Shown: piece after piece, positions 24,551 through 50,830 of the stretch
Layout: each line of letters begins with the position of its first letter
Numbering within the stretch: position 1 is the first letter of the stretch
Assembly: GCA_022072445.1 (NCBI GenBank)
Contig: JAJVHV010000024.1
Location: 62,001 to 126,000, forward strand
Source of the DNA: Phycisphaerae bacterium
Lineage (GTDB): Bacteria > Planctomycetota > Phycisphaerae > UBA1845 > Fen-1342
DNA length: 64,000 nucleotides
Direction: 5' to 3'
Translations under genes and position numbers: made by a program
The notes under the pieces: model-generated
Told to the model about the DNA's origin: nothing
Database searches by the model: none
What the model saw: only the letters and a program-made list of their open reading frames with translations

Positions 24551-24599
24551 GGGGTTCTCGAACGTAGCGGCGCGAGCGGACAGTGTAACGGGTGTCGTC

Positions 24600-24806
24600 G
24601 TGGGGCGTGGGTCTGCCGTCCAGCCCTGGCGACGCAACGGCCGTCGGCAGGGCACCCCAGCGCGACGTTGTGGGGCGTGGGTCTGCCGTCCACAGCCCTG
24701 CCGACGCAACGGCCGTCGGCAGGGCACCCCAGCGCGACGTTGTGGGGCGTGGGTCTGCCGTCCAGCCCTGCCGACGCAACGGCCGTCGGCAGGGCACCCC
24801 AGGCAC
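24600..24806. repeat. Three-copy 70-72 bp tandem repeat with internal hairpin
   Basis: Copies start at 24600, 24670 and 24742 with GTGGGGCGTGGGTCTGCCG. Each holds a hairpin with arms CCCTGCCGAC and GTCGGCAGGG around GCAACGGCC. The first copy has one arm mutated (CCCTGGCGAC). The same hairpin occurs inverted at 54538-54569. It lies between the LOG gene and the divergent 910-residue gene. Confidence 0.85.
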
Positions 24807-32163: not shown

Positions 32164-32234
32164 GCCGCTCGACATCGAGACCGGCTTATCTGCCGCCGGT
32201 CTTGAGACGGGCTCCGTTGCCGCTGGTACTCGAA

Positions 32235-32596
32235 GGGTGTCGCCGGTCGTGACGGGTGTCGCCGGTCGTGACGGGTATCGCCGGTCGTGACGGGTATCGC
32301 CGGCGGCGAGTGGTATCGCGCCGTCTGAACCGCGCAGCGGGATCTGAGCCGCGCAGCGGGATCTGAGCCGCGCAGCGGGATCTGAGCCGCGACCGTCAGG
32401 GAGCGGTTTCTTAGCCCCGCGCGAGAATCCTTCGACCGCAGTTCGCACTCCGGCTCGGCTGAGAAACCGCTTCCTGACGGGCGCGGCTCGGTCTGAGAAA
32501 CCGCTTGCTGACGCGCGCGGCTCGGTCTGAGAAACCGCTTCCTGACGGGCGCGGCTCGGTCTGAGAAACCGCTTGCTGACGCGCGCGGCTCTGGCA
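32235..32596. repeat. Cluster of three tandem repeat families in the 553-bp gap
   Basis: First, a 19-bp unit GGGTGTCGCCGGTCGTGAC, four copies starting at 32235, 32254, 32273 and 32292. Second, a 19-bp unit beginning CCGCGCAGCG, three copies at 32330, 32349 and 32368. Third, a 34-bp unit containing GAGAAACCGCTT at 32461, 32495, 32529 and 32563, alternating CCTGACGGGC and GCTGACGCGC. No gene is seen in 32164-32716. Confidence 0.85.
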
Positions 32597-34015: not shown

Positions 34016-34428
34016 AAAGCGCGCCCAGCCGAGCGCCAAAGCGCGCCCAGCCGAGCGCCAAAGCGCGCCCAGCCGAGCGCCAAAGCGCGCCCAGCCGAGC
34101 CCCGACCGTGAGGGAGGGGTTCGACGGAGAAATGCCATCGGACTTGGCGCCGAACCTCGCCGAGCCCGTCGACGCCCTCCGTCCGAACCCCTCCCTCACG
34201 GTCGGGGCTCGGCTGGGGACGCGATTCGGCTCGGCTGGGGACGCGATTCGGATCGGCTGGGGACGCGATTCGGATCGGCTGGGGACGCGATTCGGATCGG
34301 CTGGGGACGCGATTCGGATCGGCTGGGGACGCGATTCGGATCGGCTGGGGACGCGATTCGGATCGGCTGGGGACGCGATTCGGCTCGACTGGGGATGCGA
34401 TTCGGATCGGCTGGGGAGGCAACTCGAC
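34016..34428. repeat. Large composite palindrome of 22-bp arrays around a 29-bp inverted repeat
   Basis: Left arm: four 22-bp units from 34016 (period exactly 22, core CCCAGCCGAG), then a 29-bp arm at 34095-34123. A 60-nt loop follows, then the perfect reverse complement at 34184-34212. Right arm: ten 22-bp units starting at 34209, 34231, 34253 and so on to 34407 (core CTCGGCTGGG or ATCGGCTGGG). The two unit families are related in opposite orientation. The array ends 2 nt before the stop codon of the next gene. No protein gene is supported here. Confidence 0.88.
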
Positions 34429-42471: not shown

Positions 42472-44076
42472 TCAGCGCTTCGTCGTACCGACTTGTACGC
42501 CGTTGATCACGGTTCGCACGCAGTGCGTGGTGAACTCGAACGGATCGCCGTCGTACAGTGCGGCGTCGCCGTCCTTGCCGACTTCGAGCGAGCCGACGCG
42601 CTGCTCGATGCCGAGAATCTTCGCCGGCTGGATCGTGATCGTGGCCAGCGCCTGCTCGGGCGTCAGGCCGTTCGACGCGGCCATCGCCGCCTCGAACAAC
42701 ACGACGCGCACCTTGGGCACGTAGTCTTCGTAGCCGCCCTGGATCGCGACCGGGATGCCGGCCTTCATGAGCTTGCTGGCGGTCTCGAAGCTCAGATTCT
42801 CGGTGTCCTCGTAAGCGCGGTACATCGTCGGGTGCACCAGCACGGGCACGCCCGCGGCCTTGATCTCGTCGGTCAGCAGATACGCCTCCGCGGCCATGTC
42901 GAGGATCAGGCGGACATTGAACTCCTTTGCGAGGCGCAGAGCGGTCGCGATGTCGTGCGCGCGGTTGCAGGTGACGACCAGCGGCAGCTCGCGCTTCAGC
43001 ACGCGGACGAGCATCTCGCTGCGCAGGCTGCGATCGGGCTTCTTGTCAGGCTCGGCGGCCTTGTCCAGCTTCTGCTGATACTCCTGGGCCTTGATCAGCT
43101 CCTGCCGCAGGAGCGAAACCATCTTGCTGCGCGTGCCGGGCGATTTGCCGTCGCCTTTCTGCGCCCAGGGGCTGAGCGTCGCGACGACGGCCGCGTCGGC
43201 GACCAGCGTGGCTTCCTCGACCGTGTTGCCTGTGGTCTTGAGGATCGCCGTCTGGCCGGAGATGACTTCGCCGGGTGCATGACCGGTGTGAACGGTCGTG
43301 ACGCCGAAGCCGCGCAGCCACTCGATCAGCTTTTCCTGCGGGTTGTAGGCGTCGATGGCGCGGAGCTCGGGCTGAAGCGGCGCGGAGTGCTCGAGTTGGT
43401 CGCTGTCGTGCTTCTGGTTGTAGATGCCGGAGAGGCCGACGACCGTGTGCGCGTCGATCAGCCCGGGCGTGACGACCGCGGCGTCGAGCGTCTTCGTGCC
43501 GGCGGGAATCTGCACCTGCGCCGCCGGTCCGACGGCGGCGATCTTGCCGTCGCGGATCAGCACGGCGCCGTCCTTGATCGTGCCGGCGGGGCCCATCGTG
43601 TGAATGATCTTGCCCTTGATGGCGATCGTCTGACCGCTGGCGACGCAGACAGACGCGAGCGCCGCCGTGATCGCCGCGAACGCGGCGACGCGTCCCCTTC
43701 GTCGCTGCGTCGCTCTCTCCGCGCCTCGTCGTTCACGCACCGGCCGGAGGCCGATGCTCCCCTTCGTCGCTGCGTCGCTCCGTCGCTGCCTCAGCACCGG
43801 GCCGTTCACGCACCGGCCGGAGGCCGATGCTCCCCTTCGTCGCTGCGTCGCTCTCTCCGCGCCTCGTCGTTCACGCACCGGCCGGAGGCCGATGCTCCCC
43901 TTCGTCGCTGCGTCGCTCCGTCGCTGCCTCAGCACCGGGCCGTTCACGCACCGGCCGGAGGCCGATGCTCCCCTTCGTCGCTGCGTCGCTCTCTCCGCGC
44001 CTCGTCGTTCACGCACCGGCCGGAGGCCGATGCTCCCCTTCGTCGCTGCGTCGCTCCGTCGCTCTTCTTGCGTCAT
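42472..44076 (-). CDS. Amidohydrolase-like paralog lacking the HxH metal motif, with N-terminal repeat expansion
   Basis: Start at the ATG ending at 44076, overlapping the upstream stop (ATGA); no alternative start lies closer to the signal segment. The 534-residue protein begins MTQEE, then 123 residues of near-identical repeats (residues 6-128), then a signal-like segment RVAAFAAITAALASVCVASG (129 on) and an amidohydrolase-like TIM barrel (TPGLIDAHTVVGLSG, VVTCNRAHDIATALRLAKEF, VQIPAGTKTLDAAVV). The usual HxH is DAHTVVG here, and the later barrel His and Asp ligands are not evident (IQGGYED in place of the Asp motif). It may be a non-catalytic partner of the upstream amidohydrolase. Confidence 0.7.
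   Translation of the reverse strand: MTQEERRSDAATKGSIGLRPVRERRGAERATQRRRGASASGRCVNGPVLRQRRSDAATKGSIGLRPVRERRGAERATQRRRGASASGRCVNGPVLRQRRSDAATKGSIGLRPVRERRGAERATQRRRGRVAAFAAITAALASVCVASGQTIAIKGKIIHTMGPAGTIKDGAVLIRDGKIAAVGPAAQVQIPAGTKTLDAAVVTPGLIDAHTVVGLSGIYNQKHDSDQLEHSAPLQPELRAIDAYNPQEKLIEWLRGFGVTTVHTGHAPGEVISGQTAILKTTGNTVEEATLVADAAVVATLSPWAQKGDGKSPGTRSKMVSLLRQELIKAQEYQQKLDKAAEPDKKPDRSLRSEMLVRVLKRELPLVVTCNRAHDIATALRLAKEFNVRLILDMAAEAYLLTDEIKAAGVPVLVHPTMYRAYEDTENLSFETASKLMKAGIPVAIQGGYEDYVPKVRVVLFEAAMAASNGLTPEQALATITIQPAKILGIEQRVGSLEVGKDGDAALYDGDPFEFTTHCVRTVINGVQVGTTKR
43693..44061 (-). repeat. 138-bp tandem repeat inside the amidohydrolase-like gene
   Basis: About 2.7 copies, period exactly 138 bp (markers GCGCCTCGTC at 43721, 43859 and 43997). 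138 is 46 codons, so the reading frame and absence of stops are preserved. Each unit holds two halves of 73 and 65 bp that share CACCGGCCGGAGGCCGATGC. The array sits between the start codon and the signal segment. Confidence 0.9.
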
Positions 44077-45386
44077 TGCCCCTCCTCCTGCTCCGCGCAG
44101 CACAGATACGGTTTCAGCGGGCTGCCGGCGCCGTAGCCGCCGACGGCGTGCAGATAGTCCTTCGGGTCGCTGCGGTCGAACACCTTGACGCCCTCGACCC
44201 ACGTCTCCAGCACCTTGGAGTACACACTCAGCGGGTCGCCCGACAGAATGATGAAATCCGCGTCTTTTCCAGCTTCGAGCGAGCCGATCCGCGCGTCGAG
44301 GTCCATCATCTTGGCGCCGTTCAGCGTCAGCGACGCCAGCGCCGTCTTGCGCGACAGCCCGCCGCGCACGCCCAGCGCCGCGCTGCGGAGAAACCAGCGC
44401 GCGTCGGTGATCCAGTCGTCAGTGTGATAGGCCAGCAGCACGCCGGCCTTTTCCAGCACGGCGCCGGTCTCGAACGAGATTTCCGCCGCCTCCAGCTTTC
44501 CGCCCGGGCTGTCGACGATGATCGCCGAGCAGGGCGCCTTGGCGGCGGCGATTTCGTCGGCGACCTTCCACGCCTCGCTGACGTGGTGCAGCACGACGCG
44601 GAAGCCGAACTCCTTGCTGAGCCGCAGCACGGTGATGATGTCGTCGGCACGGTGCGTGTGATGGTGCACGATGCGCTTGCCCTCGAGCACCTCGACCATG
44701 GCCTCGAGGCCGATGTCGCGCGCTGGCACTTTCTCCGGGTCGCCGGCGGCGCGTTGAATCTTGTCGCGATACTCCTGCGCCTTGATGTACTGCTCGCGGA
44801 CCAGCGCGGCCGACTTGCCGCGCGTGCCGGAGAAGGGCGGATCGCGCATCGAGTTCGTGCCGTTGGCCATCTTCATGCCGCCCATCAGCCAGCCCGACGC
44901 GTCGCGGATGCCCATCTCCTCGATCGTCTTGCAGCCCTTGCGGAGCTTCACGTAGATCGTCTGGCCGCTCATCAGGTGCCCAGAGCCAGGCATGATGTTC
45001 AGCGTCGTCAGACCGCCGGCGACGCCACGGCGGAAGCCGGCGTCGAAAGGGTTCAGCGCGTCGTAGACGCGCGTGTCGGGCTGGATGGTGGCGCTGCCGT
45101 CGGCCCCGCCCCAGCCGCCCATGTGGTTATGCGTGTCGACCAGTCCGGGCATGATGAATTTGCCCGTCGCGTCGATCTTCCGCGCGCCGTCGGGAATTTT
45201 CACCGCCCCAGCCGCGCCCGCGGCGACGATCTTGCCTTTATGTACCACCAGCACGCCGCCGTCGACCTCGTCGCCGGCGATGGTGATCAGGTGCGCGCCG
45301 GTGAAGGCGAGCGGGGCGTCCTGGGCGCGGGCCAAGACCGCCGCGGCCATGGCCGCCAGCGCGGCCAGCAGACGAAAGTGCTTCAA
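44073..45386 (-). CDS. Secreted imidazolonepropionase-like amidohydrolase
   Basis: A 437-residue exported amidohydrolase. It has a signal peptide (KHFRLLAALAAMAAAVLARA), metal motif PGLVDTHNHMG with H86 and H88, barrel histidines in KRIVHHHTHRADD and VVLHHVSEA, and catalytic Asp in LAYHTDD. It probably hydrolyses a cyclic amide or a dipeptide-like substrate outside the cytoplasm. Its stop overlaps the start of the metal-less paralog (ATGA), so the two are likely made together, perhaps as a complex. Confidence 0.82.
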   Translation of the reverse strand: MKHFRLLAALAAMAAAVLARAQDAPLAFTGAHLITIAGDEVDGGVLVVHKGKIVAAGAAGAVKIPDGARKIDATGKFIMPGLVDTHNHMGGWGGADGSATIQPDTRVYDALNPFDAGFRRGVAGGLTTLNIMPGSGHLMSGQTIYVKLRKGCKTIEEMGIRDASGWLMGGMKMANGTNSMRDPPFSGTRGKSAALVREQYIKAQEYRDKIQRAAGDPEKVPARDIGLEAMVEVLEGKRIVHHHTHRADDIITVLRLSKEFGFRVVLHHVSEAWKVADEIAAAKAPCSAIIVDSPGGKLEAAEISFETGAVLEKAGVLLAYHTDDWITDARWFLRSAALGVRGGLSRKTALASLTLNGAKMMDLDARIGSLEAGKDADFIILSGDPLSVYSKVLETWVEGVKVFDRSDPKDYLHAVGGYGAGSPLKPYLCCAEQEEGQ

Positions 45387-50624: not shown

Positions 50625-50830
50625 GGCAGGTCGCCGCCGTCGGCGACCTGCCAGTGCGGGCTCCTATCCGGTGTGGCACAGGCTATTAGCCTGTGTGCCT
50701 GTGTGCCTGTGTGGCACAGGCTATCAGCCTGTGTGCCTGTGTGGCACAGGCTATCAGCCTGCGTGCCGTGTGGCACAGGCTATCAGCCTGTGTGCCTGTG
50801 TGGGCAGGTCGCCGCCATTGGCGACCTGCC
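50625..50830. repeat. Hairpin-flanked tandem array
   Basis: Four copies of a 29-38 nt unit starting GTGTGGCACAGGCTAT (50671, 50709, 50739, 50768). Each forms a hairpin GGCACAGGCT-ATC-AGCCTGTG; copy one reads ATT. The array is bracketed by two copies of a hairpin with arms GGCAGGTCGCC and GGCGACCTGCC (50625-50652, 50803-50830), also present at 42421. Between 50831 and 51016 I see no gene. Confidence 0.85.

Follow-up and report, generated by a model that had tools for sequence, protein, structure and literature searches.

The window analysed here is the whole 64,000-nucleotide stretch of a Phycisphaerae contig, and its coordinates are the contig coordinates minus 62000. It carries on the minus strand two adjacent paralogous amidohydrolase genes, with a tandem repeat at the junction between them. 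The downstream gene, hereafter the host gene, encodes an amidohydrolase-family enzyme that matches the Pfam domains Amidohydro_3 (8e-13) and Amidohydro_1 (4e-12), and its open reading frame (ORF) runs through the repeat up to the end of the upstream paralog, the counterparts of which in relatives are likewise neighbours, at 62-77% identity. The features of the locus are, in the direction of transcription:

44073..45386, minus strand: paralogous amidohydrolase gene located 5' of the host gene, with a signal-peptide-like start of its own (Pfam)
44079..44088, minus strand: GGAGGAGGGG, a putative ribosome-binding-like sequence 5' of the ATG
44073..44076, minus strand: ATGA, in which the host-gene start overlaps the stop of the upstream paralog (sequence; the same kind of overlap is found in relatives)
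42472..44076, minus strand: host gene, downstream member of the tandem paralog pair (ORF of 534 aa including the extension)
43693..44063, minus strand: tandem array of 371 bp, a 138-bp unit in 2.69 copies, 100% identical (TRF and direct check)
44013..44036, minus strand: REP copy 1 (genome pattern search)
43948..43971, minus strand: REP copy 2 (genome pattern search)
43875..43898, minus strand: REP copy 3 (genome pattern search)
43810..43833, minus strand: REP copy 4 (genome pattern search)
43737..43760, minus strand: REP copy 5, a GGAG head followed by a 9-bp stem with a 3-nt loop (genome pattern search; contig positions 105737-105760)
43633..43689, minus strand: predicted hydrophobic core of the signal peptide, VAAFAAITAALASVCVASG (hydropathy maximum)

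ATG44076 is a well-supported predicted start of the host gene, given its ATGA overlap with the paralog's stop, which relatives share; the overlap also supports this upstream ATG as the ancestral start. Translated from ATG44076 to 42472, the ORF reads MTQEE-[array]-RVAAFAAITAALASVCVASGQT and is free of stop codons. This bears out an earlier note, made by a model from the letters of this DNA, according to which the array lies in frame inside the ORF and adds about 123 residues; indeed, 2.69 exact 138-bp copies are contained in the 534-aa amidohydrolase ORF. The span given there, 43693-44061, was right at its start, but the array reaches 2 bp further, to 44063. The extension contains 35 Arg, 3 Lys and 9 acidic residues without a hydrophobic stretch, and its hydropathy maximum is 0.09, compared with 2.21 for the top windows, which start at residues 130-132. 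The hydrophobic core, undamaged and preceded by the Arg-rich segment, is the sole signal-peptide-like segment in the N-terminal 200 residues of the ORF. The earlier note expected the insertion to change or block export; the sequence gives no sign of a block. The earlier expectation that the array-free leader, MTQEE-RVAAF, would be a normal signal peptide did not hold, its n-region being acidic and not typical. Furthermore, the edge repeats share 23 bp, and recombinational collapse between the edges would leave MTQEERRSDAATKGRVAAF, not MTQEE-RVAAF.

Structure of the 138-bp array

TRF reported a period of 138, 2.7 copies, a 100% match and 0 indels, and a direct comparison at an offset of 138 gave 0 mismatches, with the repeat extending past neither edge. 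The unit is itself near-duplicated, consisting of half-units A (65 bp) and B (73 bp), which have in common a 33-bp start (GGGGAGCATCGGCCTCCGGCCGGTGCGTGAACG) and an 18-bp end contributed by a linker repeat. On the minus strand, the array runs from the end of the linker through A(65)-B(73)-A-B-A to the start of another REP. A 28-nt core, GCATCGGCCTCCGGCCGGTGCGTGAACG, is found 5 times in the real sequence, against 0 in shuffled versions of the window, far more than chance would give.

Four of the 6 frames of the GC-rich 138-bp unit are open, compared with 3-5 in most shuffles, and the stop-free unit was rejected as a sign of selection because the shuffles are equally open. Nor is the RNA structure of the whole array more stable than that of its shuffles (z 0.69), which leaves a large RNA switch unsupported; single hairpins alone stand out in the folding. 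The codon model does not score the array as coding, which counts against translation, yet is what would be expected of a recent insert. Four other tandem arrays are present in the window, at 24596-24802 (72-bp unit), 32231-32591 (19/34 bp), 34016-34417 (22-bp unit) and 50671-50803 (30 bp), and the codon-based gene model places all four between genes, unlike the 138-bp array.

According to the earlier note, a change in copy number would never shift the frame. This is true of 138-bp steps but not of 65- or 73-bp steps: with one half-unit lost, the ORF stops at 46 or 65 codons and does not reach the signal peptide, whereas loss of a full unit preserves it. Such a difference is what a contingency switch would exploit, with slippage between adjacent REPs (65/73 bp apart, 51 bp shared) turning the enzyme off and 138-bp steps keeping it on, and the exact identity of all copies suggests recent change. 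However, the array is found in one genome only and there is no hint that phase variation of this enzyme would be useful, and we regard a switch as quite unlikely. It is also very unlikely that the array is an assembly artefact, in the sense that the real one would be shorter or longer than assembled. The genome is a draft of 50 contigs, and short reads hardly fix the copy number of perfect 138-bp repeats, but the contig is 140 kb long, the flanks are unique, the half-units differ, the edges are distinct and the in-frame reading is kept; the doubt is confined to copy number.

The REP family and embedded transposases

Each 138-bp unit contains two REP-type hairpins with the 24-nt core GGAGCATCGGCCTCCGGCCGGTGC. 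This core matches 61 sites of the genome with ≤3 mismatches, as opposed to 0 for a control pattern read backwards, and a degenerate REP pattern recovers 73 copies in the same genome (G000). The family is present in 17 of the 27 genomes of the taxonomic family, with 278 copies in G015. The REP folds into a 9-bp stem with a 3-nt loop (-16.8 kcal/mol); among 16 sequence variants, the innermost stem pair is C-G in 9 and G-C in 7, a compensatory exchange, and 92% of the cells are paired in this stem register compared with 19-50% in slid versions.

The repeat unit, which the earlier note had left unnamed, firmly belongs to this dispersed REP family. Its members have the characteristics by which REP elements are recognized: an imperfect hairpin-forming palindrome of 20-40 bp, tens to hundreds of dispersed and mainly intergenic copies (as judged from codon-scored flanks), and a RAYT with REPs in inverted orientation on its flanks. 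Outside the array, where the copies are mostly intergenic, many form head-to-head pairs 36-77 nt apart and are REPIN-like. The array itself is not a REPIN, that is, two inverted REPs with a short spacer, since all five of its REPs have the same orientation. Nearly all copies carry a GGAG head, with GTAG seen only occasionally; the family thus lacks the terminal tetranucleotide of the GTAG/CGTC superfamily and was not filed as a GTAG family. REPs are extragenic by name; those of the array lie inside the ORF of a conserved protein with the frame kept, as in intragenic in-frame REP clusters. Parts of the linker repeat (GCGACGCAGCGACGAA and neighbours) also match many other sites in the genome. 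The array is almost certainly a tandemly amplified REP cluster in mosaic with this linker repeat.

REP copies beside long open frames at three further loci (L121, L130 and L134) were considered as in-frame cases and rejected, because the REP there falls in sequence with a poor coding score, at the likely start or ahead of it. At these loci (about 2060-2170), REP pairs lie within a larger repeat, the ends of which resemble TGTAGTGCCTCAG ... CTGAGGCAGTACA and give it the look of a MITE with inverted ends.

Y1 transposase matches number 10 in G000. One of them, a RAYT on contig 27, is flanked by the REP of the array, with 14 plus-oriented REPs spaced every 42 bp upstream, and one plus-oriented and two minus-oriented REPs downstream. 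It passes NF047646, the NCBI model of REP-associated tyrosine transposases (85 bits, cut-off 80), and its HUH and Tyr motifs are intact. This RAYT and its REPs are embedded in frame inside ileS (contig 27, L106:861-5801, plus strand, ORF of 1647 aa), and the RAYT-bearing ileS is the only G000 gene passing the ileS model.

Similar arrangements were seen in other host genes. In G000, two different Y1 transposase domains lie in frame inside alaS (L107:1280-6337, minus strand), and a RAYT-like domain lies within the single purH (L108:1369-4263, plus strand). Across the genomes of this family, in-frame Y1/RAYT domains recur in genes that are essential or central, namely ileS (G000, G008, G010, G015, G016 and G019), purH (G000, G007, G013, G018 and G024), alaS (two in G000), valS (G015) and gcvP (G015 and G019), the loci in relatives being L138-L149 (G007, G008, G010, G013, G015, G016, G018, G019 and G024). 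In ileS, one insertion site lies between DDPSVFVKF and LLVWTTTPWTL, and a second between STLLF and PYKTCIVLGHV, ahead of KMSK. A tree of the embedded domains groups them by host gene (ileS 95/88, alaS+valS 100/97, gcvP 92/92), with purH in two groups; its branches are long, and few RAYTs of this class that stand alone could be included for comparison. A separate locus (L109:3112-4383, minus strand) carries a Y1-transposase-like ORF in which the peptide TTPGPNARVPKDA is repeated about ten times.

We consider the in-frame RAYTs in ileS, purH, alaS, valS and gcvP more surprising than the array itself. A search of the literature for transposases embedded in synthetases turned up nothing relevant, and none of the papers found describes this arrangement; one survey dropped proteins that were unusually long, taking them for fused genes or errors of annotation (PMC6006769). 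More tentatively, and with some doubt on our part, a RAYT/REP system of this planctomycete family might live in frame in host genes, with transposases in essential enzymes and REP arrays in leaders, both being kept open by selection and the element being co-translated with genes indispensable to the cell, in which case the array would be its non-autonomous outpost.

The paralog junction in related genomes

To place the array in context, we compared the junction in 43 genomes carrying the amidohydrolase gene pair, G000 included. The array is absent from orthologs at 60-70% identity, most of which combine an overlapping start with a short signal peptide, in agreement with the earlier note's reading of the array as an insertion. 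The junction is compact in 33 of the 43 genomes, with ≤74 nt from the paralog stop to the signal-peptide core, and most compact junctions have an in-frame start at the overlap followed by a short signal peptide. The remaining 10 genomes carry junction inserts of at least 100 nt. In 5 of these 10 loci (G000, G063, G085, G064 and G022), the coupled start keeps its frame and reads through to the core without a stop, where 0.56 would be expected from shuffled inserts, or 0.91 if chance start codons are allowed (P about 8e-5 to 8e-4), the G000 locus having been chosen for its in-frame state; when G000 is excluded on this account, 4 of 9 are in frame (P 0.0007-0.004). These counts support frame keeping above chance across the junction inserts of several lineages.

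The inserts that were examined are mutually unrelated. That of G063 combines other repeats into a mosaic, which matches the G063 genome 65 times. G003, which was left out of the ten because a contig end cuts the upstream gene, carries a third repeat, for which 40 matches were scored in its own genome. For the leader insert of G085, the rest of the genome offers only two weak matches, so a high copy number is not a feature of all junction inserts.

The keeping of the coupled start in frame above chance argues that the long leader is translated from ATG44076, which we judge fairly likely. Alternatively, the array could be effectively 5' untranslated, affecting mRNA stability or gene coupling, with translation starting downstream, most probably from a GTG of the last REP. 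In-frame GTGs are located at -51, -108 and -120 nt from the core, the candidate start lying 17 codons before it (MRERRGAERATQRRRGRVAAF...), and the in-frame GTG codons within the last REP make a shorter leader possible. Many N-terminal REPs in other genomes are probably extragenic given a downstream translation start (PMC3733652), and the insert-bearing genomes G096, G097, G098, G031, G036 and G112, without an in-frame junction start, need a nearer one. However, there is no ATG from the array to the core, the GTG is within a REP stem with the nearest GGGGAG 16 nt away, and the in-frame state of half of the inserts would be unexpected if the upstream start were unused. We regard an untranslated array as possible but rather unlikely.

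For the locus as a whole, we consider it quite probable that a RAYT-linked REP cluster was inserted at the coupled junction, expanded and is translated as a leader. The REP (GGAG head and hairpin), mixed with the second dispersed linker repeat GCGACGCAGCGACGAA, would have entered the stop/start junction of the two translationally coupled amidohydrolase genes, its arrival presumably driven by a RAYT, and would then have been expanded into exact 138-bp units by recombination or slippage. Owing to the insert length and the reading frames of the REPs, the ORF would have stayed open and the coupled ATG would still initiate. The second enzyme would thus be made with an Arg-rich extension of ~123 residues before an intact signal-peptide core, and export would presumably tolerate this extension as a very long n-region.

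The 43-genome comparison allows the question of whether such inserts are translated to be asked directly, with the frame being kept several-fold above chance, and the junction inserts, from 0 to 383 nt, form a natural series for testing the tolerated length of the signal-peptide n-region. RAYTs with intact catalytic motifs in ileS, purH, alaS, valS and gcvP would, in turn, bear on the settlement of selfish elements in essential genes.

Comparison with known REP systems

An in-frame tandem REP cluster is of a known kind, and is unusual here in its length and context. REPs in frame inside ORFs were described in 2013, with clusters that encode 43-82 residues, a notable share of them N-terminal (PMC3733652). 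Like the array, these GTAG/CGTC intragenic clusters are composed of short palindromes that are high in copy number and RAYT-linked, and some are in frame. By contrast, the array has a GGAG head, encodes ~123 residues in exact tandem and separates a coupled start codon from a signal peptide, and unrelated repeat inserts occur in parallel at the same junction in other lineages. The tandem REP/REPIN clusters with repeated flanks of Pseudomonas fluorescens SBW25 (PMC3116915, 2011) also consist of evenly spaced REPs, with inverted doublets elsewhere and REPs beside RAYTs; REPs there are described as extragenic, whereas the cluster studied here is inside an ORF, with all copies in one orientation. 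Rickettsia palindromic elements (RPE, as described in PMC3733652) are likewise palindromic repeats in frame in protein genes, N-terminal positions included; the present case differs in having a RAYT with the same REP and in its tandem expansion. Finally, BIMEs and RAYT-flanking REPs (PMC2817692, 2010) share with our system the mosaic of REP and spacer repeat and the RAYT flanked by inverted REPs, but here the REP-flanked RAYT is itself embedded in frame in ileS.
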